From positions 1 to 28,100 of IMG/VR virus record IMGVR_UViG_3300030107_006048: 28,100 nucleotides of DNA. One strand, given 5' to 3'. This document shows positions 2,633 through 21,975 of this stretch, piece by piece (positions within the stretch are counted from its first letter, which is position 1; each line of letters starts with the position of its first letter). A program made the position numbers and the translations under genes. The DNA comes from a virus. A model generated the notes under the pieces. The model saw nothing but the letters and a program-made list of their open reading frames with translations, had not been told where the DNA came from and did not search any database.

Positions 2633-5600
2633 TTATGCAGATTCAAGAGCTTTTACTTTAGCTGATAATTCTTGTATTGCTTTTACAAGAATTGGTATTA
2701 ATTTACCTGGAGCGGCCTCCAGTTTTTCAGGGTTTGATTCTAAAACTAAATCAAGGTAATCAGCATCATTATCTTTTTGTATCTGTTGAAAATCTTGGGC
2801 AATGAAACCTGCTTCGTAAGTACCGTCTTTTAGTATGCCTTCTCTAGAATTCCACTTAAATTTAACTGGCTTAAGAGCATCAACGAAATTTAATCCTAAA
2901 TCTAAAGTGTTAATATCTGTTTTATCTCTCCTATCAGATAATGAACTAATACTTGTAACTTGACAACGTAAGGTTGATATTGAACTATTACCTAAAGTTA
3001 TTTCATTAGATACTGTTGTTGAACTAGCAGTGGCACCTAATCCAATTGCAGTATTATTTAGACCTGTTGTTAAATTACTTAATGCGTTACGTCCTAAAGC
3101 AGTATTTCCTTCACCACTAGTTATAGCATCACCAGCAAAACATCCTACAGCAGTGTTATGACTTCCAGTGCATTTTTCTAAAGCTAGATTACCAACAGCT
3201 GTAATTTGACTAGCAGTAGTTATTGTTTCACCTGCTTTATATCCAATAGCTACACTTTGCGAAGCAGTCGTATTAGCTTTTAAAGCATATTTTCCTATAG
3301 CAACATTCCATCCTCCAGTTGTATTAGCTAGTAAAGCTTCAGCACCAATAGCAACAGTAGCTTCACCTGTTGTATTAACTTCTCCTGCATCTTTACCAAT
3401 AAATACATTGCTACCACCAGTAGTATTTGCATAGCCAGCATCTTTACCAATAAATGTATTAGCTGCACCACTTGTATTCGAATAAGCTGATTTAGAACCA
3501 ATAAATGTATTATCATCAGCTGTTGATACAAAGCCAGATCTATAACCAATATATGTATTATCTTGTCCAGTAGTTTGGGTATAGCCTGAATCAATACCAA
3601 GTCCAGTATTATTAGCTCCAGTAGTAGTAGCTTTTAATGCATTGCATCCAAATGCAGCATTATTACTTGCAGTTGTATTCAATTGTAAAGCATAAGCACC
3701 CACACCCGTATTATTTGATCCTGTCGTTATTTCATGTAAAACATAATGACCAACACCTGTATTATTTCCTCCTGACGTTAATTCATCTAATGCTTCTCCA
3801 CCAATAGCAACATTACTTGAACCAGTTACAGCTGCAGCATGCATAACACTATATCCAATACCTATATTCCAAGAACCTGTTGTAACTTTGAATCCTGAAG
3901 CTTGGCCTACGAATACAGAATAACTACCAGTAGTTAAATCTTCACAAGATCTACCACCAATTGCTGTGTTTCTATCTCCAGTTGTACATTGAGCTAAAGC
4001 AGAACCACCTACAGCAGTACAAGAACTATTACTTGCATTTCTATCATGTGCTCCTAATGCTCGATAACCAACAGCTACAAATTCTGTAATCGTTCCAGTT
4101 GTTTGTGCATCTAATGCACCATTACCAATCGCAACATTATTAGTACTTTCATTTGCAAGAAGTTTAAAAGCATCTTTTCCTATTGCAATATTTCCATAAC
4201 CTGTAGTTTCGGTATATAAAGCATCACTTCCTATAGCAACATTAGAGTATCCAGTTGTTAAGCTATATCCTGCTTGGTTTCCAAAACCTATATTGTTAGA
4301 GCCAGTTGTTACTTGTCTAATAACATCATTACCAACACCAACGTTGTAAGCACCAGAAGTAAGGGCACGTAAACCATCTCTACCAACTACTACATTATGA
4401 GTTCCAGTAACAGTACCCATCATGGATTCTGGACCAAGACCCATGTTGTAGTTTCCTGTAGTTACGCCACCACCTGCATCTCTACCTAAGAAAGTACAAT
4501 CAGTAGCTGTAGTTACTGCGTCTCCAGCACGAATTCCTACAGCAGTATTGCTTGTTCCAGTAACATTTCTTAAAGCATCTAATCCGACCCCAGTATTACC
4601 ATTGCCTGTTGCAAGTTGACCTGAATCTTTTCCAATAAATACACAGTGACTAACTGTTGTAAGAGCAGAACCTGCATTATTTCCTATGCAAACATTTTGT
4701 GTTCCTGTAGTGATTGCATCACCAGCTTGATACCCTATTGCTGTGTTATCTGTACCTGTTGTGAGTGATTTTAGAGCTTCTTTTCCTATCGCAACATGAC
4801 CTGATGTAGTAGTTAAGCTGTATAAAGCTCGTCTACCCACTGCAATATTATCTGATCCTGAAGTATTGTCTTCTAAAGCTCCTTGTCCAAAACCACAGTT
4901 ATCACCACCAGTTGTCTTTAAACCAGCATTAGATCCAAAGAAACAGTTGTTGCCAGCTGCTGCGATTGCTTTACCAGCTTGATATCCGAAAAGTGTTGTA
5001 TGATCTGCTGTACTTAAACCATTACCAGCTTGATAACCAGCAAATGTATTAACTCCACTATTACTAGGACTATTGCTGGTTTCTAAGTTGACGTATTGTT
5101 GACCTGTACCTGGACCACCACCTGCTGCTTCCCATCCAGCATCACCATTTGCATCTACTGTTAGAACATAATTATCAGTAGCCGTACTATCTTTAATTGA
5201 GAAGTTTAGACCAGGAATTCTAAATTTGGTAGTACTGCTATTTCCAAGAGTTATTTCATCGCTTACATCTGATGCACTTGCGTATGTAAAGTTTCCAATA
5301 CAGATATTATTACTACCTGTTCTTAAATTATCTCCTGCACCTACTCCAATTCCTACGTTAGTAGTACCAGTAGTTAAATCTTTTAAAGCTTGATAACCTA
5401 CTGCAGTATTTCTAAGGCCAGTTGTACTAGCCATCGCTTCAAATCCTACTGCTACACAAGCATCTGCTGTTGTTATAGCACTTAGGGATGTAGCCCCAAT
5501 AGCTACATGTTTTGCACCTGTAGTTATTGCATCACCAGCTGCATTACCAACTACTGTATTTTCACTTCCAGTTGTATTTTCATGTAGACTATCTCTACCA

Positions 5601-8600
5601 ACAGCTACGTTTGAAGTTCCAGTTGTTGTTTTTTGTAGAGAACCGTGACCAAGAGCTACGATATTAGTACTTGTTGTAGCTGTTTGTAATGAAAAGGTTC
5701 CAATAGCAATATTTTGACCACCTGTAGTAATTGCTTTACCAGAATCTCTAGATATGAATACATTATTATTAGCAGTTGTACTTGCATAACCTGCGTTATA
5801 TCCAATTACTGTGTTGTTGTAACCAGTACTATTTGTATATAAGGTCCTACTTCCAATTGCGGTATTCCAACTTCCAGTAGTACTGGTATATCCAGAATAA
5901 TGTCCAATAAAAGTATTCTCACTAGCTGTTGTTAGTGATGTTCCTCCTTGCATACCTAGAACAGTATTATTACTACCTGTTGTTAAAGTTTTTGCTACAT
6001 TATGACCTACTGCAGTATTTTCTACACCTGTTGATAAATCCATTAAAGCTTGATGACCAACAGCAGTATTTTTAGTTGATGACCAAATATCTTCTAATGC
6101 TTTATAACCAATAGCAACGTTTTCTGTTCCTGTTGTAAGAGTTTTAAGTGCTTCATTACCTATCGCAATATTTTTATCTCCAGTCTCTAAATTTTCGAAA
6201 GCTTTATATCCAATTCCTATATTATCGTCAGCTCCATCTATATCAGTTCCTGCTTGCGCCCCCACCATTGTATTACGGTTGCCATCTCCTCCATCGAAAG
6301 CCCAATTTCCAACTGCTGTATTGTCGTCTCCACTACTAATACCATTACCAGCATTACTACCAACTAATGTATTACGGTTAGCATTAGTTCCACTAAAGTT
6401 TAAACCAGCCCATTTACCAAATATAGTATTAGATTGAGCATCGGATGACTCAGTTCCATTAGTTGAAAAAGTTATCGTATCACTAGATCTAGAAACTGAT
6501 AATCCAGTACCAGCAGATAAAACAACATCATCTGTATTTGAACTACTATCAGTAAGCCTAATTTTCTCAGAAGCTGCTGTATCACCATCTACAGCAGATA
6601 TAGTATATGTTGTATCAGAACTAGATACAGCTTCCCAACCAGCATCTCCATTAGCATCAACAGTTAATACATAATTATCTGTAGCTGTACTATCTTTGAT
6701 ACTAAAATTAAGACCAGGAACTCTGAACTTGGTAATTGCTGAATCACCTAAAGTTATCTCATTAGAAACTGTTGCAGAACTAGGAGTAGCATCGTGACCG
6801 ATAAGAATATTATTTGAACCAGTTGTTAAATTATTAGTTCCAGAAGTACCAGCTTGATAACCAATCAGTGTATTATCAGCTCCACTGGTTACAGCATAAC
6901 CAGCTCTACCTCCTAATGCTGTGTTATAACTACCTGTTGAATTATATAAACAATTAGCTCCAATTCCAGTACTATATGTTCCTGATGTATTTAGTAGTAA
7001 AGCAAATTGTCCAATACCTGTATTTTGTTGCCCTGTCGTTAATTTACATGCTTGTGCACCTATAGCAATATTTCCTAGAGATGTAGTACAAGCTTTAAGT
7101 GCCTCTTGACCAATAGCTACGTTTTGAACACCAGTTGTTATTGCAGTTCCAGCTTGATAACCAAGTGCAGTATTATTATCAGCTGTAGTGTTTGCTGCTA
7201 AAGCTTGAGAACCAATTCCCGTATTATTACTTCCTGTAGTTAACGCAGTACCAGCTTGATAGCCTAATAAAGCATTATTAGTTGCCGTACTTGTAACTAT
7301 TCCAACTTCAAAACCAACTCCTGTGTTTTGACTTCCTGTTGTACAACTACGAAAAGCTTTATAACCAACTGCAGTTTGGTTGCCTATTGTTGTATCTCTT
7401 AATGCATAGGCACCAACAGCTACACCACCTCCAACTGTTGTTATGCTATTCAAAGCCATTAAACCAATACCAGTATTCTCACCTCCTGTAGTTACGCTAA
7501 CTAAAGCTTGATAACCAAAACCAGAGTTGTAAGTTCCTGTTGTAAGAGCAATTAAAGATGCCGAACCAACGGCTGTGTTACTGGTTCCAGTAGCAACTCT
7601 TAAAGCCTGATCACCAATCGCAGTATTATGATTAGAACTAACATTATGTCTTAATGCATCACGTCCAAATGCAACGTTGTTGCCACCAGTTGTATTAGAA
7701 TAACCTGCTACAGCCCCAAAGAAACAATTATTATCCCCTGTCGTAGTTGCAAATCCAGTACCATATCCATAAAAAGTATTCTCAACAGCTCCATTAGCTA
7801 GACCGTTACCTGAGTTATAACCTGCAAATGTATTGGTTCCTGTGTTAGAAAGTGCTCCAGAAACGTTTAATTTTACATAAGTTTCACCTGTACCAGTACC
7901 AACAGCTTGCCAACTGCCATCACCTCTTAAGAACGTAGAACTTGAAGCTGTTCCCGATCCAAGTCTTGCTGTTCCAACTGTTCCAGATGAAAGGTTAGAC
8001 GCATTTAAAGCTGTTAAATTTACACCACTAGCAGTAGGTAATGTCGCAGGAAAACGAGCATCAGGTACTGTTCCAGATGTTAAATTACTTGCGTTTAATG
8101 CAGTTAAATCTACTGTTGCCCAACTTAAAGTTCCATTCCCTGAAGTTTGTAAAACTTGACCAGAACTTCCATCAGCATTAGGTAAAGTCCAAACAATATT
8201 ACTAGCGACAGTACTTGCTGATTGAAATCCTACATAATTAGATCCATCTGCATCTTTTAAACGAATATCAGCTGGAAAAGTAAAATCACCTGTAGCAGCA
8301 ATGGATGCAGGTGTTACTGAATTATCTGATGGTATTCCAACTGAATAACTATCTCCTAAAACTGTTGCAAAGAATGCCGTTCCATTTGCTGGAGCACTTG
8401 TAAAGACAATACTAGAACCTGAAACATTGTAATCTGTTCCAGGTTGCTTAATAACATTTCCTAAAGAAACTAATAAATTAGCAGCTGTTCCAGGGGAAAC
8501 AGCATCACCATTAACTGTTAAAGCAAAACTAGTCGTACTACCATTAAATCCACTGGAAATGTTATCACAAAGACTATATTTTCCAGTTATTGGGGATTGT

Positions 8601-8614
8601 CCTAAATATGCCAT
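2633..8614 (-). CDS. Giant phage fibre with YadA-head-like repeats and S74 self-cleaving chaperone (1993 aa)
   Basis: This is a very long virion fibre or adhesin. Residues 1-165 are a unique N-terminal domain, presumably for virion attachment. Residues ~165-240 hold repeats of the LTALNASNLSSGTV type. From ~257 on, about 17-residue repeats of the pattern NTAxGYxAxxxxTTGxx occur in three cassettes (ends near 655, 1160 and 1868). The first two cassettes each close with an SNEITLG...FRIPGLNFSIKD cap and a DANGDAGWEA segment. The pattern resembles the YadA-head left-handed beta-roll of trimeric adhesins. The C-terminus is a peptidase S74 (endosialidase chaperone) domain beginning SDRRDK, with Ser1893 and Lys1898 in the positions of the known catalytic pair. 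S74 domains trimerise the fibre and then cleave themselves off. A late-type promoter lies 57-64 bases upstream of the start. Confidence 0.9.
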   Translation of the reverse strand: MAYLGQSPITGKYSLCDNISSGFNGSTTSFALTVNGDAVSPGTAANLLVSLGNVIKQPGTDYNVSGSSIVFTSAPANGTAFFATVLGDSYSVGIPSDNSVTPASIAATGDFTFPADIRLKDADGSNYVGFQSASTVASNIVWTLPNADGSSGQVLQTSGNGTLSWATVDLTALNASNLTSGTVPDARFPATLPTASGVNLTALNASNLSSGTVGTARLGSGTASSSTFLRGDGSWQAVGTGTGETYVKLNVSGALSNTGTNTFAGYNSGNGLANGAVENTFYGYGTGFATTTGDNNCFFGAVAGYSNTTGGNNVAFGRDALRHNVSSNHNTAIGDQALRVATGTSNTAVGSASLIALTTGTYNSGFGYQALVSVTTGGENTGIGLMALNSITTVGGGVAVGAYALRDTTIGNQTAVGYKAFRSCTTGSQNTGVGFEVGIVTSTATNNALLGYQAGTALTTGSNNTGIGSQALAANTTADNNTALGYQAGTAITTGVQNVAIGQEALKACTTSLGNIAIGAQACKLTTGQQNTGIGQFALLLNTSGTYSTGIGANCLYNSTGSYNTALGGRAGYAVTSGADNTLIGYQAGTSGTNNLTTGSNNILIGHDATPSSATVSNEITLGDSAITKFRVPGLNFSIKDSTATDNYVLTVDANGDAGWEAVSSSDTTYTISAVDGDTAASEKIRLTDSSSNTDDVVLSAGTGLSVSRSSDTITFSTNGTESSDAQSNTIFGKWAGLNFSGTNANRNTLVGSNAGNGISSGDDNTAVGNWAFDGGDGNRNTMVGAQAGTDIDGADDNIGIGYKAFENLETGDKNIAIGNEALKTLTTGTENVAIGYKALEDIWSSTKNTAVGHQALMDLSTGVENTAVGHNVAKTLTTGSNNTVLGMQGGTSLTTASENTFIGHYSGYTSTTGSWNTAIGSRTLYTNSTGYNNTVIGYNAGYASTTANNNVFISRDSGKAITTGGQNIAIGTFSLQTATTSTNIVALGHGSLQKTTTGTSNVAVGRDSLHENTTGSENTVVGNAAGDAITTGAKHVAIGATSLSAITTADACVAVGFEAMASTTGLRNTAVGYQALKDLTTGTTNVGIGVGAGDNLRTGSNNICIGNFTYASASDVSDEITLGNSSTTKFRIPGLNFSIKDSTATDNYVLTVDANGDAGWEAAGGGPGTGQQYVNLETSNSPSNSGVNTFAGYQAGNGLSTADHTTLFGYQAGKAIAAAGNNCFFGSNAGLKTTGGDNCGFGQGALEDNTSGSDNIAVGRRALYSLTTTSGHVAIGKEALKSLTTGTDNTAIGYQAGDAITTGTQNVCIGNNAGSALTTVSHCVFIGKDSGQLATGNGNTGVGLDALRNVTGTSNTAVGIRAGDAVTTATDCTFLGRDAGGGVTTGNYNMGLGPESMMGTVTGTHNVVVGRDGLRALTSGAYNVGVGNDVIRQVTTGSNNIGFGNQAGYSLTTGYSNVAIGSDALYTETTGYGNIAIGKDAFKLLANESTNNVAIGNGALDAQTTGTITEFVAVGYRALGAHDRNASNSSCTAVGGSALAQCTTGDRNTAIGGRSCEDLTTGSYSVFVGQASGFKVTTGSWNIGIGYSVMHAAAVTGSSNVAIGGEALDELTSGGNNTGVGHYVLHEITTGSNNTGVGAYALQLNTTASNNAAFGCNALKATTTGANNTGLGIDSGYTQTTGQDNTYIGYRSGFVSTADDNTFIGSKSAYSNTSGAANTFIGKDAGYANTTGGSNVFIGKDAGEVNTTGEATVAIGAEALLANTTGGWNVAIGKYALKANTTASQSVAIGYKAGETITTASQITAVGNLALEKCTGSHNTAVGCFAGDAITSGEGNTALGRNALSNLTTGLNNTAIGLGATASSTTVSNEITLGNSSISTLRCQVTSISSLSDRRDKTDINTLDLGLNFVDALKPVKFKWNSREGILKDGTYEAGFIAQDFQQIQKDNDADYLDLVLESNPEKLEAAPGKLIPILVKAIQELSAKVKALESA
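2990..5060 (-). repeat. Fibre 1 repeat cassette 3
   Basis: The longest cassette of this gene, with about 17-codon repeats opening at NTFAGYQAGNGLSTAD and running into the terminal cap SNEITLGNSSISTLRCQVTS that leads into the S74 domain. The preceding linker (GTGQQYVNLETSNSPS) is nearly the same as the one before cassette 1 of the 2289-aa fibre. Boundaries are approximate. Confidence 0.75.
5125..6440 (-). repeat. Fibre 1 repeat cassette 2
   Basis: A second run of about 17-codon repeats, opening at SNTIFGKWAGLNFSG and closing with SDEITLGNSSTTKFRIPGL and GWEA. It is separated from cassette 1 by a different linker of about 60 residues (TYTISAVDGDTAASEKIRLT and following), a non-repeat beta-rich spacer. 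Boundaries are approximate. Confidence 0.75.
6630..7845 (-). repeat. Fibre 1 repeat cassette 1
   Basis: About 51-bp (17-codon) repeats encode NTAxGYxAL-type units. The cassette opens with NTFAGYNSGNGLANGA and closes with an SATVSNEITLG cap and GWEA. Its opening matches cassette 2 of the 2289-aa fibre, not the other cassettes of its own gene. Boundaries are approximate. Confidence 0.75.
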
Positions 8615-9244: not shown

Positions 9245-12200
9245 TTAGCTTGCTTCTAATACTGCAAGTCTATTTTCCAAATCAATATTTTTAGCAGATA
9301 GATCTTGTATTGCTTTCACAAGTATTGGAATTAGTTTTCCAGGAGCTGCCTCAAGTCTTTCTGGATTCGACTCTAAAACTAAATTAAGATAATCTGCATC
9401 ATTATCTTTCTGTACTTCTTGGAAATCTTGAGCAATAAAACCTGCTTCATAAGTACCGTCTTTTAATATACCTTCTCTAGAATTCCATTTAAATTTAACT
9501 GGCTTAAGAGCATTTATAAAATTCAATCCTAAATCTAATGTATTAATGTCAGTTTTATCTCGTCTATCAGAAAGTGAACTAATACTTGTTACTTGACAAC
9601 GTAAAGTAGAAACTGAAGTATTACCTAAAGTAAATTCATTATCTACATCTGTTGCAGAAGCTTCCGCATCTTGTCCTAAAATTGTATTATTATTACCTGT
9701 AACTAAATCTGCACCTGCTCCTCTACCAATACAAGTATTACCATTACCAGTAGTAACATTCATACCTGATTGATGTCCTAGTCCAGTATTAGATGGAGCT
9801 GTAGTGCAGTCTTCAAATGAATGTCCTCCAATTGCTGTTACAAAATAAGCAGTAGTAATAGCTCTTCCTGCGTATTTACCCATTGCTACACTTGTATGTG
9901 CTGTTGTAGCATTGTCCATACAATTAAGACCTACAGCAACGTTAGCTTCTCCACTAGTCATTGCAGCTGCAGCATTGCAACCTATAGCAATATTTCCACT
10001 AGATGTACTAAGAGTTAAAGCGTTATAACCTATTGCAACACTTTTATATGGATTTGCTCCAGTTGAACTAAAACATAGAGATCCAATCGCAACGTTTTCA
10101 TATCCAGTAGTTGCTGCATCACCAGCACCATGTCCTATAAAAGTATTATGGTTTCCTGTAGTAAGTGCTGCTCCAGCTTGGTATCCAACCAAAGTTGAAT
10201 GATTTGCTGTTGTTGATGCCTGACCAGCGTAATAACCAATAGCTACATTACTATTTTGTTCAATATTACTAAATAAAGAATAATGACCAATAGCTATATT
10301 ATTATTACCAGTTGTACACTGCCTATTTGTGTCATTACCAACTGCAATGTTAGTACTACCTGAAGTGATGGCACGTAAACTATCTCTTCCTACACAAACA
10401 TTATGTGTTCCAGTAACAGCAGCCATCATAGATTCTGCACCGATAGCTGTGTTGTAACTACCAGTCGTTACTCCACCACCTGCATCTCGACCTACGAAAG
10501 TACAATCGGTAGCTGTAGTTAATATGTCTCCAGCTTGATAACCAATGACTGTATTATTTGCTCCAGTAGTAAATGCATATCCAGATTTATAACCAACCGT
10601 TGTATTTCCAGCTCCTGAAGTTAAGTCTCTTAATGCCCAAGAACCAATGCCTGTATTGTTACTTCCAGTAACTGTTTCATTGCCTAGAGCTTTATAACCT
10701 ACAGCAGTATTATAAGCAGCTGTCTGGGCATACATAAGTGAGAAAGCACCGTATGCTGTGTTATATCCTCCTGTTGTAATACGGTTCATTGAGTGCATAC
10801 CAACAGCAGTGTTATAATCACCAGTCGTTAGATATTGAAAAACTTCATAACCAATTCCAACAGGACTATTAGCTGAAGTTGCTAGAGGTCCACATTTAGC
10901 TCCGATTAAAACATATTGTCCAGCACCAGTAGTAGATGAACCAGCGTTATAACCTATTGCAACAGCATGACTACCTGTAGTCATACCATTCATAGCATTG
11001 GTACCAATTGCTGCGTTATATCCGCCTGTAGTTAATGAATCTAAAGCATTAGATCCAACAGCAGTATTATTTGTTCCAGTCGTATTAACTTTAAGAGTAT
11101 TTTGTCCACAGGCTAAATTGTTATTACCACTAGTATTAGCTCTTAACGCATCTGATCCAAACGCTGTATTTCCTGTTGCTGTATTAGCAGTTAAAGCATA
11201 AGCTCCAACAGCAGTACAATCGGCTGCCGTAGTAAGAGCAGTTAAAGCATAATGACCTATTCCAACATTGGTACTTCCTGTCGTTAAAACATTTAAAGCA
11301 GCCTTGCCCATTGCAATATTGTTAGCACCTGTTGTTGCTGCATATAAAGCACCATTGCCAAACGCATGATTATAGCTAGCTGTTGTAGCCATCTCTAAAG
11401 CTGATTTACCAAACGCATTATTTTGAGTTCCAGTAGTGTTTGAAGCTAAAGCGTCTGCACCAACAGCAGTATTATAAGAAGCTGTTGTATTTGAATCCAG
11501 AGCAGCCTTTCCAACAGCAGTGTTGTCAGCTCCAGTCGTGTTTGCTTTAAGTGCTTGATACCCAAAAGATGAATTAGTACTTCCAGTAGTTGTATAGTTA
11601 CCAGCCTCATACCCAACATAAGTGTTGTTTGTAGCTGTAGTAACTGCTCCACCTGCCCATCTTCCAACAAATACATGACCTGTTCCTGTTGTTACGCCTT
11701 CACCTGCGTAATAACCAATAGCAGTAATATCATTAGGTGTTGTAAGAGCCGTTAAAGCTTTGAAACCAATAGCCACGTTTCTTCCACCCGTAGTGCAAGC
11801 ATCTAAAGCTTCCGAACCAATAGCAACGTTGTAATCTCCAGTCGTTACAGCCTTACCAGCTTGATAACCAAGTGCAGTATTATCAGAGCCAGATGTCGTT
11901 ACAGTTAAAGCTAAATAACCAATACCTGTGTTGTTATTAGCTTCGCTATCTCTTAAAGCTCTATGACCAACTGCTGTGTTATAAGAAACTCCTGCACTAG
12001 AGCTGCCCATTGCAGAATGACCTATCGCAATATTCTTTTCACCAGTGGTTAAATTCTCTAGTGTTTCATGTCCAAGAGCAACATTATTACCACCTGAAGT
12101 ACAGCCAGACAAAGCTTTAGCTCCAAAAGCAGTGTTCTCACTACCACTTGTTATTGCATCGGCAGCGTTATAACCAACTGAAGTTAGGTTTGTAGTTGCT

Positions 12201-15200
12201 GTTCCAGCAACACCACCAGCAGCAGCTTCCCAACCACATTGACCATTAGCGTCAACTGTTAAAACATAATCTTCAGTAGCCGTTGAATCTTTAAGATCAA
12301 AATTTACACCTGGTATCCTGAATCTATCATTAGAGACATTACCTATAGTTATCTCATTAGAAACTGTTGCTGAAGTAGGATTTATCGCTTCTCCAATAAC
12401 GATATTATTACTTCCTGTTGTAAGATTTCTTGCAGATTCTCTTCCTATTACTGTATTTTCAGATCCTGTAGTTAGAGCATCAAGCACTTGATGTCCTACT
12501 GCAACATTACTGGTTCCAGTTGTTACATTAGCTAAAGTAGAAGTTCCTAAAGCAACGTTCCAGTAGCCAGTAGTCATGTCGTAACCTGACATACTTCCTA
12601 CTAATACGTTATTAGTTCCAGTAGTTAGACTGTATCCAGAGCTTGTACCTACACATGTTGTATTAGATGAAGTAGAAACAACTCTAAGACTATTAGCTCC
12701 TATTGCAACGTTGTTACCACCAGATGCACTTCCATTGGTACTACGCATAGCGTAAAGACCAAGAGCAGTATTTGATGCTCCTTCACTATATTCACCAGAA
12801 TTTCCTCCAACAAAAGTATTGCTGTTTTGAGTAGTTTGTGTGATACCTGCTGATCTTCCAATAAAAGTATTACCTGTTCCTGTTGTATTAGCAAAACCTG
12901 CGTGGTATCCCAATGCAGTATTATTATCAGCTGTAGTGTTAGCCTGTAGAGCTCTTTTACCAATAGCAGTATTATTAGATCCTGTGGTATTTGTGTCTAA
13001 TGATTTATAACCTACGGCTGTATTAAAACCTCCAGTAGTATTAGCCAACATTGCCCAAGTACCAATGGATACGTTTTCCCAGCCTGTAGTATTTGCTTTT
13101 AAAGATTCATGTCCAACAGCTACATTGGAACCACCTGTAGTATTTGCATAAAGTGCATTATTACCGATTGCTGTATGATTTGATACAGTAGTAACTGTGT
13201 ATAAAGCCCTCTCACCGATTGCTATATTGGAATCTGCTGTTGTGATACTTTGACCTGCCCATTTTCCTATTCCAATATTGTCATTACCTGTTGTAACAGC
13301 TCTCAAAGCTATATAACCTAAAGCACAGTTATCGCTTCCTGTTGTTACAGCCTCTAGAGCTTCTGCACCTACAGCAGTATTTTTTTCTCCTGTTGTGCAA
13401 GCTGTTAAAGCTTCCCACCCTAAAACAGTGTTATATGATCCAGTTGTAACTGCATCAGCAGCATCTGCACCTACAGCCGTGTTGCTAACTCCTGTCGTAT
13501 TAGCTTTTAAAGCTTGCTGTCCTACTGCTACTTGATAACCTCCAGTAGTATTAGCCATCAACGCAGATGCCCCTACTGCTGTATTACCAGAGTTAGTATT
13601 AACCTTTAAAGCATCATGTCCAACAGCAACATTGCTACCGCCTGTCGTAACTGTTCTAAGAGCTTCTTTACCAAGAGCTGTGTTAGAACTACCTGTTGTT
13701 AGTGATCTTAAGGTTTCATGTCCAAAAGCAGAATTATTGCTACCTGTTGTGATATATCTACCAGCTACAGCACCAAAGAAAGCGTTATTAGTACCTGTTG
13801 ATAAGACATATCCAGCCTCATAACCATATAAAGCATTTTCAGCAGCACCATTAGCTAATGACCCTCCTGAGTTATAACCTACATAAGTATTACTTCCGTT
13901 ATTAGCTAATGAACCAGAGTTATTTTTAATTTTGACGTAACTTTCACCTGTACCTGCGCCTCCAGCAGCTTCCCAACCAGCATCACCATTTGCGTCAACA
14001 GTTAATACATAATCATTGGTAGCCGTTGAATTTTTGATTGAGAAGTTAAGACCTGGGATTCTAAATTTAGTTATACCCGAATGACCTAAAGTTATCTCAT
14101 TACTTACTGTCGCTGAACTTGCATCTACATCATCTCCAATACATATATTATAATTACCTGTCGTAATATTGCCTCCAGCACTACTTCCTAAACAGATATT
14201 ACTATGTCCTGTCGTAATTAATACTCCAGCTTGAAATCCAAGAGCTACATTATTAAATCCTGTTGTTTCGGTATATAAAGCCTCTCTGCCTATAGCAGTA
14301 TTTTGATAACCAGTTGTATTTGCTGTTAAAGTTCCTTGACCAAATGCAGCATTTGTATAACCTGTAGTATTTGCATCTAAAGCTTGAGAACCTACAGCAG
14401 TGTTATAAGCACCTGTTGTATTAGCTAATCCACATTTCGATCCAATAAAAGTATTATAACTAGCTGTTGTTTGTGCTTTTCCTGCTTCATGACCAACAAA
14501 GGTATTTCGCATTCCACTTGTTAATGCATGTCCTGTGAATGCACCAACTGCAGTGTTGTAATAAGATTGACTTGCTCCTGCAACAAGTAATGATTCATAA
14601 CCTATAGCAGTTATACCTTGTACAAAATCACTATTTAATCCATTAGCTGCCTTATAACCTACAGCAGTAACCCATTCAGCAGTTGTACTATTTTGTGCAG
14701 CTTGTTGCCCAATAGCAACTTGACCAGATGCTGTAGTACTATATTGTAAAGCTTTTCTTCCTATAGCTACATTACTTCCTCCAGTTGTATTAGTATGAAG
14801 AGCTGATTGTCCATATGCACAATTGTCAGTACCAGTAGTTGTAGCATAACCAGCATGAGAACCAAAGAAACAACTATTACCAGCTGCTGTAATAGATCTA
14901 CCAGCTTGATTACCAAATAGTGCTGTATGGTCTCCACTAGTAAAAGCATCACCAGCTAAATAACCAGCAAAGGTATTACTTCCACTATCACTAGGACTAT
15001 TACTAGTTTCTAAATATACATATTGTTGACCCGTACCTGGACCTGTTGAAACTGTTTGCCAACTATTGTCACCTCTCAAAAAAGTAGAAGTTGAAGCGGT
15101 ACCACTACCTAATCGTGCTGTTGCTACAGTTCCAGTTAATTGACCTGCTGGAAGTGAAGTAAGTAAAGCACCACTTCCGACAAAAGATGTTGCATTGCAA

Positions 15201-16114
15201 GTTGTAATAGTGGCAGAAGTAGCAGTTAAACCAGTTACAACAACTGTTGTTGCAAGGCGAGCATTAGGAAGAGTTCCAGAAGAAATATTACTTGCATTTA
15301 ATGCAGTTAAGTTGGCACCACTAGCAGCAGGTAACGTTGCTGGAAATCTTGCGTCTGGTACTGTTCCAGAAGTTAAGTTACTAGCATTTAAAGCTGTTAA
15401 GTCTATTGTTTGCCAGCTATTATCTCCTCTTAAAAAAGTAGAACTAGAAGCTGTTCCAGAACCAAGTCTTGCAGTAGCTACTGTTCCTGAGCTTAAATTA
15501 GTTGCATTTAACGCAGTTAAAGTTGATCCGTCTCCAATAAATGTTTTACCACTAGCAACTTTAATATGTTCAGAAGATGTCCATGCATCTGTTGAATTAA
15601 CCCAATTAAATGTTTTATCTGTAGCACCTTTTAAAGTCCAACCTCCTCCATCGGCAGTAGTATCTGAAGGACTAGAAACTTTTCCAAGAGTTATATTTTT
15701 ATCTTCTACATCTAAATTAGTAGTATCAATTGTAGTAGTCGTTCCATTAACTGTTAAATCTCCACCTACTGTGACATTATTAGTAACAGATAAAGTACTT
15801 AAACTATTAATAACGGGAGCTGTTAATGTCTTATTCGTTAAGGTTTGTGTATCGGTTAAACCTACTAAAGCACTAGCAGGAGCAGTTATACTTGTTCCCC
15901 ATGCTGATCCTGTACTTAATGCAATTCCTGCACCTGGATAAATAGTTGATGCATCAGGACCCCAAACTAAATTTCCACTTCCATCTAGTTCTAAAACCTG
16001 TCCTTCGCTACCACCAGCAGCACTAAGTTTGGTAGCAGTTACAGCTTGGTTAGTAATATCAGATGTTCCGACAGGAGCAGAATATCTGGGTGCCTGTGTT
16101 CCTATGTATCCCAT
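9245..16114 (-). CDS. Giant phage fibre with YadA-head-like repeats and S74 self-cleaving chaperone (2289 aa)
   Basis: A paralogue of the 1993-aa fibre with a different N-terminus. Residues 1-~200 include QTLTNKTLTAP and a VTVGGDLTVNGTTTTIDT segment of a type common in marine phage structural proteins. Residues ~195-350 hold ALNASNLSSGTVATARLGSG repeats. Then come three cassettes of about 17-residue NTAxGYxAL..TTG repeats, ending near residues 715, 1295 and 2158. The C-terminus is an S74 domain nearly identical to that of the other fibre, with Ser2182 and Lys2187 as the likely catalytic pair. It ends in a longer coiled coil (KNIDLENRLAVLEAS). The ATG follows the stop of the 126-aa gene by three bases. 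The product is probably a trimeric long fibre for host-surface binding. Confidence 0.9.
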   Translation of the reverse strand: MGYIGTQAPRYSAPVGTSDITNQAVTATKLSAAGGSEGQVLELDGSGNLVWGPDASTIYPGAGIALSTGSAWGTSITAPASALVGLTDTQTLTNKTLTAPVINSLSTLSVTNNVTVGGDLTVNGTTTTIDTTNLDVEDKNITLGKVSSPSDTTADGGGWTLKGATDKTFNWVNSTDAWTSSEHIKVASGKTFIGDGSTLTALNATNLSSGTVATARLGSGTASSSTFLRGDNSWQTIDLTALNASNLTSGTVPDARFPATLPAASGANLTALNASNISSGTLPNARLATTVVVTGLTATSATITTCNATSFVGSGALLTSLPAGQLTGTVATARLGSGTASTSTFLRGDNSWQTVSTGPGTGQQYVYLETSNSPSDSGSNTFAGYLAGDAFTSGDHTALFGNQAGRSITAAGNSCFFGSHAGYATTTGTDNCAYGQSALHTNTTGGSNVAIGRKALQYSTTASGQVAIGQQAAQNSTTAEWVTAVGYKAANGLNSDFVQGITAIGYESLLVAGASQSYYNTAVGAFTGHALTSGMRNTFVGHEAGKAQTTASYNTFIGSKCGLANTTGAYNTAVGSQALDANTTGYTNAAFGQGTLTANTTGYQNTAIGREALYTETTGFNNVALGFQAGVLITTGHSNICLGSSAGGNITTGNYNICIGDDVDASSATVSNEITLGHSGITKFRIPGLNFSIKNSTATNDYVLTVDANGDAGWEAAGGAGTGESYVKIKNNSGSLANNGSNTYVGYNSGGSLANGAAENALYGYEAGYVLSTGTNNAFFGAVAGRYITTGSNNSAFGHETLRSLTTGSSNTALGKEALRTVTTGGSNVAVGHDALKVNTNSGNTAVGASALMANTTGGYQVAVGQQALKANTTGVSNTAVGADAADAVTTGSYNTVLGWEALTACTTGEKNTAVGAEALEAVTTGSDNCALGYIALRAVTTGNDNIGIGKWAGQSITTADSNIAIGERALYTVTTVSNHTAIGNNALYANTTGGSNVAVGHESLKANTTGWENVSIGTWAMLANTTGGFNTAVGYKSLDTNTTGSNNTAIGKRALQANTTADNNTALGYHAGFANTTGTGNTFIGRSAGITQTTQNSNTFVGGNSGEYSEGASNTALGLYAMRSTNGSASGGNNVAIGANSLRVVSTSSNTTCVGTSSGYSLTTGTNNVLVGSMSGYDMTTGYWNVALGTSTLANVTTGTSNVAVGHQVLDALTTGSENTVIGRESARNLTTGSNNIVIGEAINPTSATVSNEITIGNVSNDRFRIPGVNFDLKDSTATEDYVLTVDANGQCGWEAAAGGVAGTATTNLTSVGYNAADAITSGSENTAFGAKALSGCTSGGNNVALGHETLENLTTGEKNIAIGHSAMGSSSAGVSYNTAVGHRALRDSEANNNTGIGYLALTVTTSGSDNTALGYQAGKAVTTGDYNVAIGSEALDACTTGGRNVAIGFKALTALTTPNDITAIGYYAGEGVTTGTGHVFVGRWAGGAVTTATNNTYVGYEAGNYTTTGSTNSSFGYQALKANTTGADNTAVGKAALDSNTTASYNTAVGADALASNTTGTQNNAFGKSALEMATTASYNHAFGNGALYAATTGANNIAMGKAALNVLTTGSTNVGIGHYALTALTTAADCTAVGAYALTANTATGNTAFGSDALRANTSGNNNLACGQNTLKVNTTGTNNTAVGSNALDSLTTGGYNAAIGTNAMNGMTTGSHAVAIGYNAGSSTTGAGQYVLIGAKCGPLATSANSPVGIGYEVFQYLTTGDYNTAVGMHSMNRITTGGYNTAYGAFSLMYAQTAAYNTAVGYKALGNETVTGSNNTGIGSWALRDLTSGAGNTTVGYKSGYAFTTGANNTVIGYQAGDILTTATDCTFVGRDAGGGVTTGSYNTAIGAESMMAAVTGTHNVCVGRDSLRAITSGSTNIAVGNDTNRQCTTGNNNIAIGHYSLFSNIEQNSNVAIGYYAGQASTTANHSTLVGYQAGAALTTGNHNTFIGHGAGDAATTGYENVAIGSLCFSSTGANPYKSVAIGYNALTLSTSSGNIAIGCNAAAAMTSGEANVAVGLNCMDNATTAHTSVAMGKYAGRAITTAYFVTAIGGHSFEDCTTAPSNTGLGHQSGMNVTTGNGNTCIGRGAGADLVTGNNNTILGQDAEASATDVDNEFTLGNTSVSTLRCQVTSISSLSDRRDKTDINTLDLGLNFINALKPVKFKWNSREGILKDGTYEAGFIAQDFQEVQKDNDADYLNLVLESNPERLEAAPGKLIPILVKAIQDLSAKNIDLENRLAVLEAS
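9640..12195 (-). repeat. Fibre 2 repeat cassette 3
   Basis: The longest repeat run in the window, opening near SVGYNAADAITSGSENTAFG and ending in the terminal cap NEFTLGNTSVSTLRCQVTS before the S74 domain. It contains a block near 10320-10530 that is almost the same as one in cassette 3 of the other fibre. Boundaries are approximate. Confidence 0.75.
12205..13895 (-). repeat. Fibre 2 repeat cassette 2
   Basis: About 17-codon repeats opening at NTYVGYNSGGSLANGAAEN and closing with SNEITIGNVSNDRFRIPGV and CGWEA. The opening corresponds to cassette 1 of the other fibre. The cap is the most divergent of the set. Boundaries are approximate. Confidence 0.75.
13960..14987 (-). repeat. Fibre 2 repeat cassette 1
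   Basis: About 17-codon repeats opening at NTFAGYLAGDAFTSGD and closing with SATVSNEITLGHSGITKFRI and GWEA. The preceding linker GTGQQYVYLETSNSPSDSG is shared with cassette 3 of the other fibre. Boundaries are approximate. Confidence 0.75.
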
Positions 16115-18896: not shown

Positions 18897-19285
18897 ATAG
18901 AAGAGAACGTTTATTAGCATCTATTCTTGGACCAGAAGTAGATGAAACTAAAGCAAAAATGTTAGACACAACAATAAAATTTATTTTAGGTGATATGGGT
19001 ATGCAATATACAAAATTATGGGCTTTAGAAGGCGCAGGAGTAATGGTTTTTCAGCCGAATAATAAAGATCGTTCTATGTTTTATTTAACCTTAGAACAAT
19101 TAAACTCAGCAAAAGAAGATGCTGAAAGAAATAATAATGATGATTTAGCAGAAAGTTTTAGAAGAATTTTAGATGCTGTTGCAAAAATTGATCCTGATAC
19201 AAAAGCAGGATATGTGATTAATGATCAGCAAGGAATGCGTTATTTTGAAGTTGATTACGATAAATTAGATGAAAGCACTAAATAA
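18893..19285 (+). CDS. Hypothetical protein (130 aa)
   Basis: A mainly helical, mildly acidic soluble protein. It begins MNRRERLLASILGPEVDETK, has a middle beta region (GVMVFQPNNKDRSMFYLTLE), then a helical segment rich in Glu, Asp and Asn (QLNSAKEDAERNNNDDLAES). It ends with YFEVDYDKLDESTK. No catalytic motif, Cys cluster or membrane segment is visible. Its ATG overlaps the previous TGA (ATGA), and its TAA overlaps the next ATG by one base (TAATG), so it is locked into the operon. Family and function unknown. Confidence 0.65.
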   Translation: MNRRERLLASILGPEVDETKAKMLDTTIKFILGDMGMQYTKLWALEGAGVMVFQPNNKDRSMFYLTLEQLNSAKEDAERNNNDDLAESFRRILDAVAKIDPDTKAGYVINDQQGMRYFEVDYDKLDESTK

Positions 19286-19872
19286 TGGCGATACATGATA
19301 TTACTAAAAGAAAAGAAGATTTAGAACTTATTACTAATTATGATTTAATAGCTTCAGCACATGCTTTATTAGAAGGTATAGAACTAGATGTAGCAAGTTC
19401 AAAAATTGCAAATAAATATGTTGAAGCAACTAATTTTTTTACACCATCAGATGATGGATTAAATTCTCAACAATGGTTTGGAAATGTTTATTTATTTCCT
19501 CCAAGAGGTGCTTATTTTTGGGATAAAAAAAATGATAAATGGAAGATGACAAGAGCATCTTCTCCTACATTGACTTCTTCTCATGCTGTATGGTTTAGAA
19601 AATTATATAATTCATGGTTATCAAAAGATATAAAACAAGGTTTATATTTTACAAATTGTCCTGACATGATTCGGTATGAACAAAAAATATTTGATTTTCC
19701 TATTTGTATTTTAAAAACAGCTCCATTGTTATTAAAAAACACAAGTACTGGAATTAGTAAACATAAAACTTGTACTTCTTTTTTAGTTTATTTACCTCCT
19801 ATAGATAACCCAACAGAAATGACTGAAAGATTTATTGGAATTTATTCGGAAAAAGGTCGCATTTTGTGCTGA
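19285..19872 (+). CDS. Divergent Dam-family-like protein, probably lacking methyltransferase motif IV (195 aa)
   Basis: The order of motifs resembles the phage DNA N-6-adenine methyltransferase (Dam) family. LDVASSKIANKYVEATNFFT at 34-53 matches the family's LDxAAxxxNAK...yfT block. DDGLNSQQW at 56-64 matches the DDGL..xW block. LFPPRG at 70-75 falls where the family has the catalytic NPPY(G). In the C-terminal half, FPICILKTAPLLLK and the final SEKGRIL fit the family's later strands. Here Asn and Tyr of NPPY are replaced by Phe and Arg, so transfer of a methyl group is doubtful. It could still bind DNA or S-adenosylmethionine, or be a pseudoenzyme. The assignment is by motif reading only. 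It is coupled by TAATG to the upstream gene. Confidence 0.5.
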   Translation: MAIHDITKRKEDLELITNYDLIASAHALLEGIELDVASSKIANKYVEATNFFTPSDDGLNSQQWFGNVYLFPPRGAYFWDKKNDKWKMTRASSPTLTSSHAVWFRKLYNSWLSKDIKQGLYFTNCPDMIRYEQKIFDFPICILKTAPLLLKNTSTGISKHKTCTSFLVYLPPIDNPTEMTERFIGIYSEKGRILC

Positions 19873-19905: not shown

Positions 19906-20493
19906 ATGAGCATTCTTTGTGATTGGGAAATCAAAGCTTTGTCTTTGGGTGATAAATTAATTGCTCCTTTTACAGATCATGTAGTTAGAGAAGAAAATGG
20001 GCGTAAAATACTTAGTTATGGTCTAGGTTCTTATGGTTATGATATACGTTTATCTTCTAAACAATGTTTAATATTTGGTACACCATCAAGAGGAGATTGT
20101 GATCCAAAGAATTTTAGTTCTGACATATTAAAAGAAACAGAATTAAAAGAAGATAAAAATGGAAAATATTTTATGATTCCTCCTTATGGCTATGCTTTAT
20201 GTGTTGCAGAAGAACGTTTACATTTACCAGAAGATATTACAGTTATTCCAGCTGGTAAATCAAGTTATGCACGTTCAGGAATTCATTGTAATATTACACC
20301 TGCAGAAGGAGGTTGGGAAGGATATTTAACTCTACAAATTAATAATGCAACAGGATTATTTAATCGTATTTATGCAAATGAAGGTATCATACAATTAGTA
20401 TTTTTCCGTGGAAAAACTTGTTCAGTAAGTTATAAAGATCGTAAAGGTAAATATCAAAATCAACCTAAAGAAGTTGTATGTGCAAAAGTTTAA
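19906..20493 (+). CDS. dcd: dCTP deaminase homologue with catalytic Glu replaced by Gln (195 aa)
   Basis: Clear Dcd/dUTPase-superfamily trimer fold. SYGLGSYGYDIRLS at 37-50, DPKNF at 66-70, PAGKSSYARSGIHCNITP at 115-132, WEGYLTLQINN at 137-147 and IYANEGIIQLVFF follow in the normal order and at normal length. Dcd converts dCTP to dUTP and feeds dTTP synthesis. The Ser119/Arg123 pair is present (E. coli Ser111/Arg115). At the position of the essential general base (E. coli Glu138, within LEF) this protein has Gln144, codon CAA at 20335-20337. Activity is therefore doubtful; regulation, dNTP sensing or altered chemistry are possible. It is last in the + strand operon, 33 bases after the Dam-like gene, and overlaps the convergent gene by four bases. 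Confidence 0.88.
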   Translation: MSILCDWEIKALSLGDKLIAPFTDHVVREENGRKILSYGLGSYGYDIRLSSKQCLIFGTPSRGDCDPKNFSSDILKETELKEDKNGKYFMIPPYGYALCVAEERLHLPEDITVIPAGKSSYARSGIHCNITPAEGGWEGYLTLQINNATGLFNRIYANEGIIQLVFFRGKTCSVSYKDRKGKYQNQPKEVVCAKV

Positions 20494-21316: not shown

Positions 21317-21658
21317 ATGCGTATGGCTGGTCCAGAAGCAGAAAAAAATGAAGTTACTGATATAACTTATATAACTAAAGAATCTCCATTAAAATGGGAA
21401 AATATTACTAAATTTATTGATACTCGTATGGATGAAAAAGATACTCATTATCATCATTTTGATAATGTAGATAGACCAATACATTATGCTGCTGGATCCA
21501 TTGAATGTATTGATGCTATTGAAGCTCAATTAAGTGCTGAAGAATTTCGTGGTTATTTAAAAGGAAATATTATTAAATATCTATGGAGAGAAAAACATAA
21601 AGGTGGTATTGAATCTTTAAAAAAAGCTAAATGGTATTTAAATAGATTATTAGGTTAA
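21317..21658 (+). CDS. DUF3310-family protein (113 aa)
   Basis: Residues 49-112 match the DUF3310 pattern: a DRPIHYAAGSIECIDAIEA block, then EEFRGYLKGNIIKYLWREKH, then KGGIESLKKAKWYLNRL. The domain occurs in many tailed phages, often beside nucleotide-metabolism genes, but its biochemical role is not settled. The N-terminal 48 residues are an extra charged segment. Start ATG 21317 is preferred; ATG 21323 is an equal alternative two codons later. The 5' extension of the open frame to 21083 overlaps the previous gene and is probably not translated. It overlaps the convergent gene by four bases at its stop. Confidence 0.8.
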   Translation: MRMAGPEAEKNEVTDITYITKESPLKWENITKFIDTRMDEKDTHYHHFDNVDRPIHYAAGSIECIDAIEAQLSAEEFRGYLKGNIIKYLWREKHKGGIESLKKAKWYLNRLLG

Positions 21659-21975
21659 GCAGTAGCAAAAGGATCATCATCTTCATCGAATTCTTCTTGA
21701 TACTCACGTGCATCTTCAGCTAATTTTCTTAATTCAATATCTGTAGGTATATCAAAATCAATATTTATATTTTCTTGTGCAATTAATGATTTAACTGCAT
21801 GCCATTCCATAAGTCTTTGATAATACAAATTAAGTAGTGCTGAATATAATTGTTCCCATGTCATTTCCTGTGCTCCCATCTCTGCTTTTCGCATGGAGAA
21901 CTGTAATTCTAAGGGGAGAATAAATTCTCCTTCTTTTGCTTTATTTGACATTTCATCCTTCATAGATTCATTCAT
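21655..21975 (-). CDS. Acidic helical hypothetical protein (106 aa)
   Basis: A mostly helical protein: MGAQEMTWEQLYSALLNLYY at 33-52 and QRLMEWHAVKSLIAQENINI at 53-72, then an acidic tail ending EEFDEDDDPFATA. It has no membrane segment. The Met at residue 9 (MSNKAKEGEF) is an alternative start. It lies six bases downstream of the endolysin stop on the same strand, so it is probably on the endolysin's late transcript. I recall small proteins of this type in cyanomyoviruses but cannot name a function. It is not spanin-like, since it has no lipobox or membrane anchor. Confidence 0.65.
   Translation of the reverse strand: MNESMKDEMSNKAKEGEFILPLELQFSMRKAEMGAQEMTWEQLYSALLNLYYQRLMEWHAVKSLIAQENINIDFDIPTDIELRKLAEDAREYQEEFDEDDDPFATA

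Follow-up and report, generated by a model that had tools for sequence, protein, structure and literature searches.

A selectively maintained dCTP deaminase homologue with glutamine in place of the catalytic glutamate in S-EIV1-like viruses

The DNA analysed here, referred to as the window, comprises 28,100 nt of the IMG/VR virus record IMGVR_UViG_3300030107_006048 and encodes a homologue of dCTP deaminase (Dcd), hereafter the window protein. The features of the locus, with positions counted in the window, are as follows:

19285..19872, plus strand: DNA-methyltransferase-like protein with an LFPP motif, directly upstream of dcd (phrog_111, E 5.5e-8)
19906..20493, plus strand: Dcd homologue in the Gln144 form, 195 aa (PF22769, phrog_1663, AF2 model)
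20254..20274, plus strand: GKSSYAR motif, residues 117-123, in which Ser119 and Arg123 correspond to E. coli Ser111 and Arg115
20305..20307, plus strand: Glu134, counterpart of E. coli Asp128 (alignment)
20335..20337, plus strand: codon CAA for Gln144, in the column of E. coli Glu138 (alignment)
20449..20463, plus strand: C-terminal KYQNQ, residues 182-186, corresponding to E. coli K178-Q182, the lid over the nucleotide
21655-21975, minus strand: NblA-like protein, a possible phycobilisome-degradation gene (PF04485, E 1.5e-4, slightly under the curated cut-off)

From the kinship with Synechococcus phage S-EIV1 described below, along with the NblA-like gene, we infer a cyanobacterial host. Elsewhere in the window, two giant ORFs (2633-8614 and 9245-16114 (-); 1993 and 2289 aa) carry NTAVGY/TTG-type repeats, have C-terminal ends that are alike and look fibre-like by eye.

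Profile searches and structure prediction place the window protein in the Dcd family. It matches Pfam DCD PF22769 with an E value of 9.9e-21 (74.9 bits against a cut-off of 27) and PHROG 1663 (dCTP deaminase) with 1.6e-50, the family profile covers the whole domain, and DCD is its only Pfam match, while the classical trimeric dUTPase family PF00692 has no match in the window record. An AF2 model built from a 51-row alignment reaches a pLDDT of 91 and finds its best PDB match in 4dhk (Z 22.4, rmsd 1.6, 168 residues), followed by 3km3 (Z 21.2), and the predicted structure thus agrees with the statement, made in a sequence-only reading of this DNA, that the Dcd fold is kept.

When aligned to E. 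coli Dcd (sequence identical to PDB 1xs1), the WxGxxxLE block is free of gaps and Gln144 falls in the column of Glu138. This bears out the central claim of that reading, in which Gln replaces the general base of a Dcd homologue; the block WEGYLTLQINN had been given exactly. Deamination of dCTP is considered to depend on a general base in this column, and E. coli Dcd carrying E138Q reportedly has no detectable activity. On these two grounds, the Gln144 protein has likely lost dCTP deamination.

IMG/VR scans recovered relatives at 60-96% identity to the window protein, of which the nearest, at 82-96% identity and on independent contigs, all carry Gln. Column 144 in 187 locus records, a set that includes repeat views with several loci from one contig, is encoded by GAA (62), GAG (54), CAA (56) or CAG (12), with Ser in one record and no data in two. 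Sequencing error, raised earlier as an alternative, is rejected at this codon by 33 distinct Gln proteins from many separate IMG/VR contigs that use both CAA and CAG. Phylogenetically, all 33 Gln proteins fall within one clade of S-EIV1-like phages (support 99/96), together with two nested Glu proteins (L036 and L079). Glu is kept in S-EIV1 and its relatives outside this clade, and in all 80 of the most similar cellular Dcds, Prochlorococcus among them. The idea that Gln is fixed in a cyanophage clade thus holds for most of the S-EIV1-like clade but not for the two Glu sequences nested inside it, which imply that the replacement of the Glu can be reversed or took place repeatedly. The minimum change count on the tree remains two when column 144 is masked, an AU test does not reject a tree that constrains Gln to a single clade (p 0.389), and Gly41, Cys99, Ser120 and Cys128 are common to the nested Glu proteins and most Gln rows. 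Gln may therefore have a single origin, a single origin followed by reversion to Glu, or several origins, and the two nested Glu sequences could also mean that deaminase activity in the clade is easily recovered or never disappeared completely, which would speak against its loss.

Purifying selection acts strongly on the Gln clade. MG+F3X4 codon models give omega values of 0.050 (all 33 Gln proteins), 0.048 (a close subset) and 0.038 (a Glu sample); the medians of pairwise dN/dS lie above these, at 0.15-0.16 for Gln and 0.04 for Glu (with few unsaturated pairs), and all are far below 1. Within the Gln rows, codon 144 has undergone four or more switches between CAA and CAG, yet only two amino-acid changes are needed over the whole tree, which argues that Gln itself is constrained. 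Ordinary decay, in which dcd would drift after losing its use, would fit the lost catalytic residue and the lid motif lost in one subclade, but omega is at most about 0.05 in every Gln set, the ORFs are full-length in many contigs and Gln persists through these synonymous changes. We consider such drift highly improbable, and simple decay is rejected by omega, in agreement with the earlier argument from conservation, given that the fold and the Ser/Arg pair are also kept. Since Dcd has been kept under strong selection after replacement of a residue thought essential, the homologue has probably acquired a different function in this S-EIV1-like ocean virus family.

Ser119 and Arg123 align to E. 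coli Ser111 and Arg115, as proposed from the sequence, and no row of the S-EIV1-like group, Gln or Glu, departs from this pair. The column of Glu134, which we take to be that of the dUTPase catalytic Asp, an acidic residue, has Glu without exception, be the row a Gln, Glu, S-CBS4 or sampled cellular one. Lys182, Tyr183 and Gln186 align to E. coli K178, Y179 and Q182, and the window's branch of the Gln clade retains every mapped nucleotide-site residue, the lid motif included. The E. coli H125-R126 stretch is missing throughout the window's family branch, in Gln and Glu forms alike.

With most other active-site residues unchanged, the protein might still deaminate dCTP, if water were activated by Gln or another group or if Gln were converted to Glu post-translationally, and the changes at positions 99, 120 and 128, which go with the clade, might compensate for the replacement. 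However, these changes occur in the nested Glu sequences too, no new acidic residue is fixed across all Gln rows at the mapped site positions, and the E. coli E138Q protein is said to be inactive. Retained deaminase activity is therefore unlikely. Instead, we lean towards a reading in which the general-base Glu was replaced by Gln in an S-EIV1-like cyanophage lineage with loss of dCTP deamination; the Gln144 protein would still bind a pyrimidine dNTP, leave dCTP undeaminated and owe its maintenance under selection to some other nucleotide-dependent role. By their titles, the PDB matches include Glu mutants with nucleotide, namely 1xs4 (E138A with dCTP) and 2j4q (E138A with dTTP), as well as 3gf0 (E145Q with pyrophosphate), and the 2hxd title, as far as it is listed, gives E145A with an alpha,beta-modified nucleotide.

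E. coli-type Dcd is not known to hydrolyse dUTP. Nonetheless, by analogy with archaeal P45, a dUTPase that has Met in the Glu column and, on our reading, lacks deaminase activity, dUTP pyrophosphatase is tentatively the likeliest single function of the window protein. The Dcd-like dUTPases P45 and that of Thermococcus pacificus (9ln0, 8y1w), also among the PDB matches, both have Met in the Gln144 column, and the window protein shows the same pattern, with the catalytic Glu absent (Gln144) and the acidic residue of xDPGW/xExxW kept (Glu134). An archaeal protein annotated as dCTP deaminase, from Pyrococcus furiosus, is described as an efficient dUTPase without dCTP deaminase activity (PMC5122711, citing Hogrefe 2002); we read this protein as P45, although the review does not equate them. 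It is a closer precedent for the window protein than the phage dUTPases from which the sequence-only reading had suggested nucleotide sensing as a possible role. No sequence feature marking the S-EIV1-like Dcd group as bifunctional was found. In the related genomes searched, some of which are fragments, no other dUTPase matched, whether trimeric PF00692 or dimeric PF08761, although PF08761 was detected in only one control genome and its absence is weak evidence.

In one Gln subclade (L171, L173, L176, L178, L184 and L191), the Tyr and Gln have disappeared from the C-terminal KYxxQ lid while omega is still 0.037, which counts against triphosphate hydrolysis in that subclade. Because the lid is lost there in addition to the Glu, non-catalytic binding is nearly as likely as dUTPase activity: the trimer could, though this is less probable than not, bind a nucleotide (dTTP, dCTP or dUTP) or another protein, for example the adjacent methyltransferase-like one, and regulate phage or host functions without turnover. 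Catalysis-independent moonlighting of phage dUTPases offers a precedent (PMC12524310). Furthermore, nearly all related loci examined have the methyltransferase-like gene together with dcd, and in the window and in S-EIV1 it adjoins dcd upstream, making its product a possible partner of the Dcd homologue. On the other hand, the window's branch keeps all mapped nucleotide-site residues and the lid, beyond what a pure binder might need, and the neighbour is present in Glu-bearing relatives as well, so the pairing predates the loss of the Glu.

The methyltransferase-like protein has LFPP where an NPPY/DPPY catalytic motif is expected, and FPP in every aligned locus that covers this position; it is possibly a second altered enzyme. 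As the FPP motif is identical in Glu and Gln lineages, this neighbour was rejected as a co-lost partner. Loss of the thymidylate synthase ThyX was likewise considered. No ThyX match came from the Gln genomes G001 and G002, where tblastn with S-EIV1 genes places the polymerase and a flanking gene close together with no ThyX between them, and it is missing from G025, G026, G044 and G048, whose DNA polymerase is closest to that of G001 and G002. Several long Glu genomes (G011, G028, G033 and G040) also lack it and the Gln genomes are close relatives of one another, which leaves a weak link, and ThyX loss was set aside as a driver of the Gln form. ThyA, dCMP deaminase, the RNR large-subunit C-terminal domain and MazG had no match in the records searched, some of which are fragments.

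The catalytic column has also changed in another cyanophage lineage. Near relatives of S-CBS4 carry Ser in 11 cases and Cys in one, a replacement separate from the Gln of the S-EIV1-like clade; within this lineage (L007, L328-L339), L336 is also without the Arg of the Ser/Arg pair. It is possible, if short of probable, that on two or more independent occasions (Gln in S-EIV1-like phages, Ser/Cys in the S-CBS4 lineage) cyanophage Dcd lost deamination and took on a newly selected role, for example as a stand-alone dUTPase or as a dNTP sensor with the adjacent methyltransferase-like protein. Genes of this kind carry the annotation dCTP deaminase and are counted as auxiliary metabolic genes that supply dTTP synthesis, a label that would be mistaken for a recurrent set of environmental cyanophages should their Gln and Ser forms be unable to deaminate. 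A ready comparison for the repurposing of a metabolic enzyme comes from the natural Glu/Gln pair of L036/L038 and the window protein, at 76-77% identity.

Among known systems, the closest isolate counterpart is the dCTP deaminase of S-EIV1 (AHV82249), of equal length and 67% identical, in the same gene order as the window (methyltransferase-like gene, dcd, a reverse gene and lysozyme). It differs in having Glu144 instead of Gln144, and S-EIV1 encodes ThyX, which was not found in the Gln genomes searched. The nearest solved structures, the Burkholderia thailandensis and Anaplasma Dcds (4dhk and 3km3), have the NxTPxE loop in common with the window protein but retain the Glu (TLEFSN). P45 and the T. 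pacificus dUTPase resemble it in combining a Dcd-like fold with absence of the catalytic Glu, and P45 has Met and Asp where the window protein has Gln144 and Glu134; these dUTPases differ in being about 30% identical, about 155 aa long and of an independent lineage, with Met as the replacement. The M. jannaschii DCD-DUT variant E145Q (3gf0) carries the same Glu-to-Gln change, but it and E145A (2hxd) are laboratory-made variants of a bifunctional parent enzyme about 26% identical to the window protein. The S-CBS4 Dcd, from a cyanophage of another lineage and 43% identical, has lost the Glu as the window protein has, but to Ser (once Cys).
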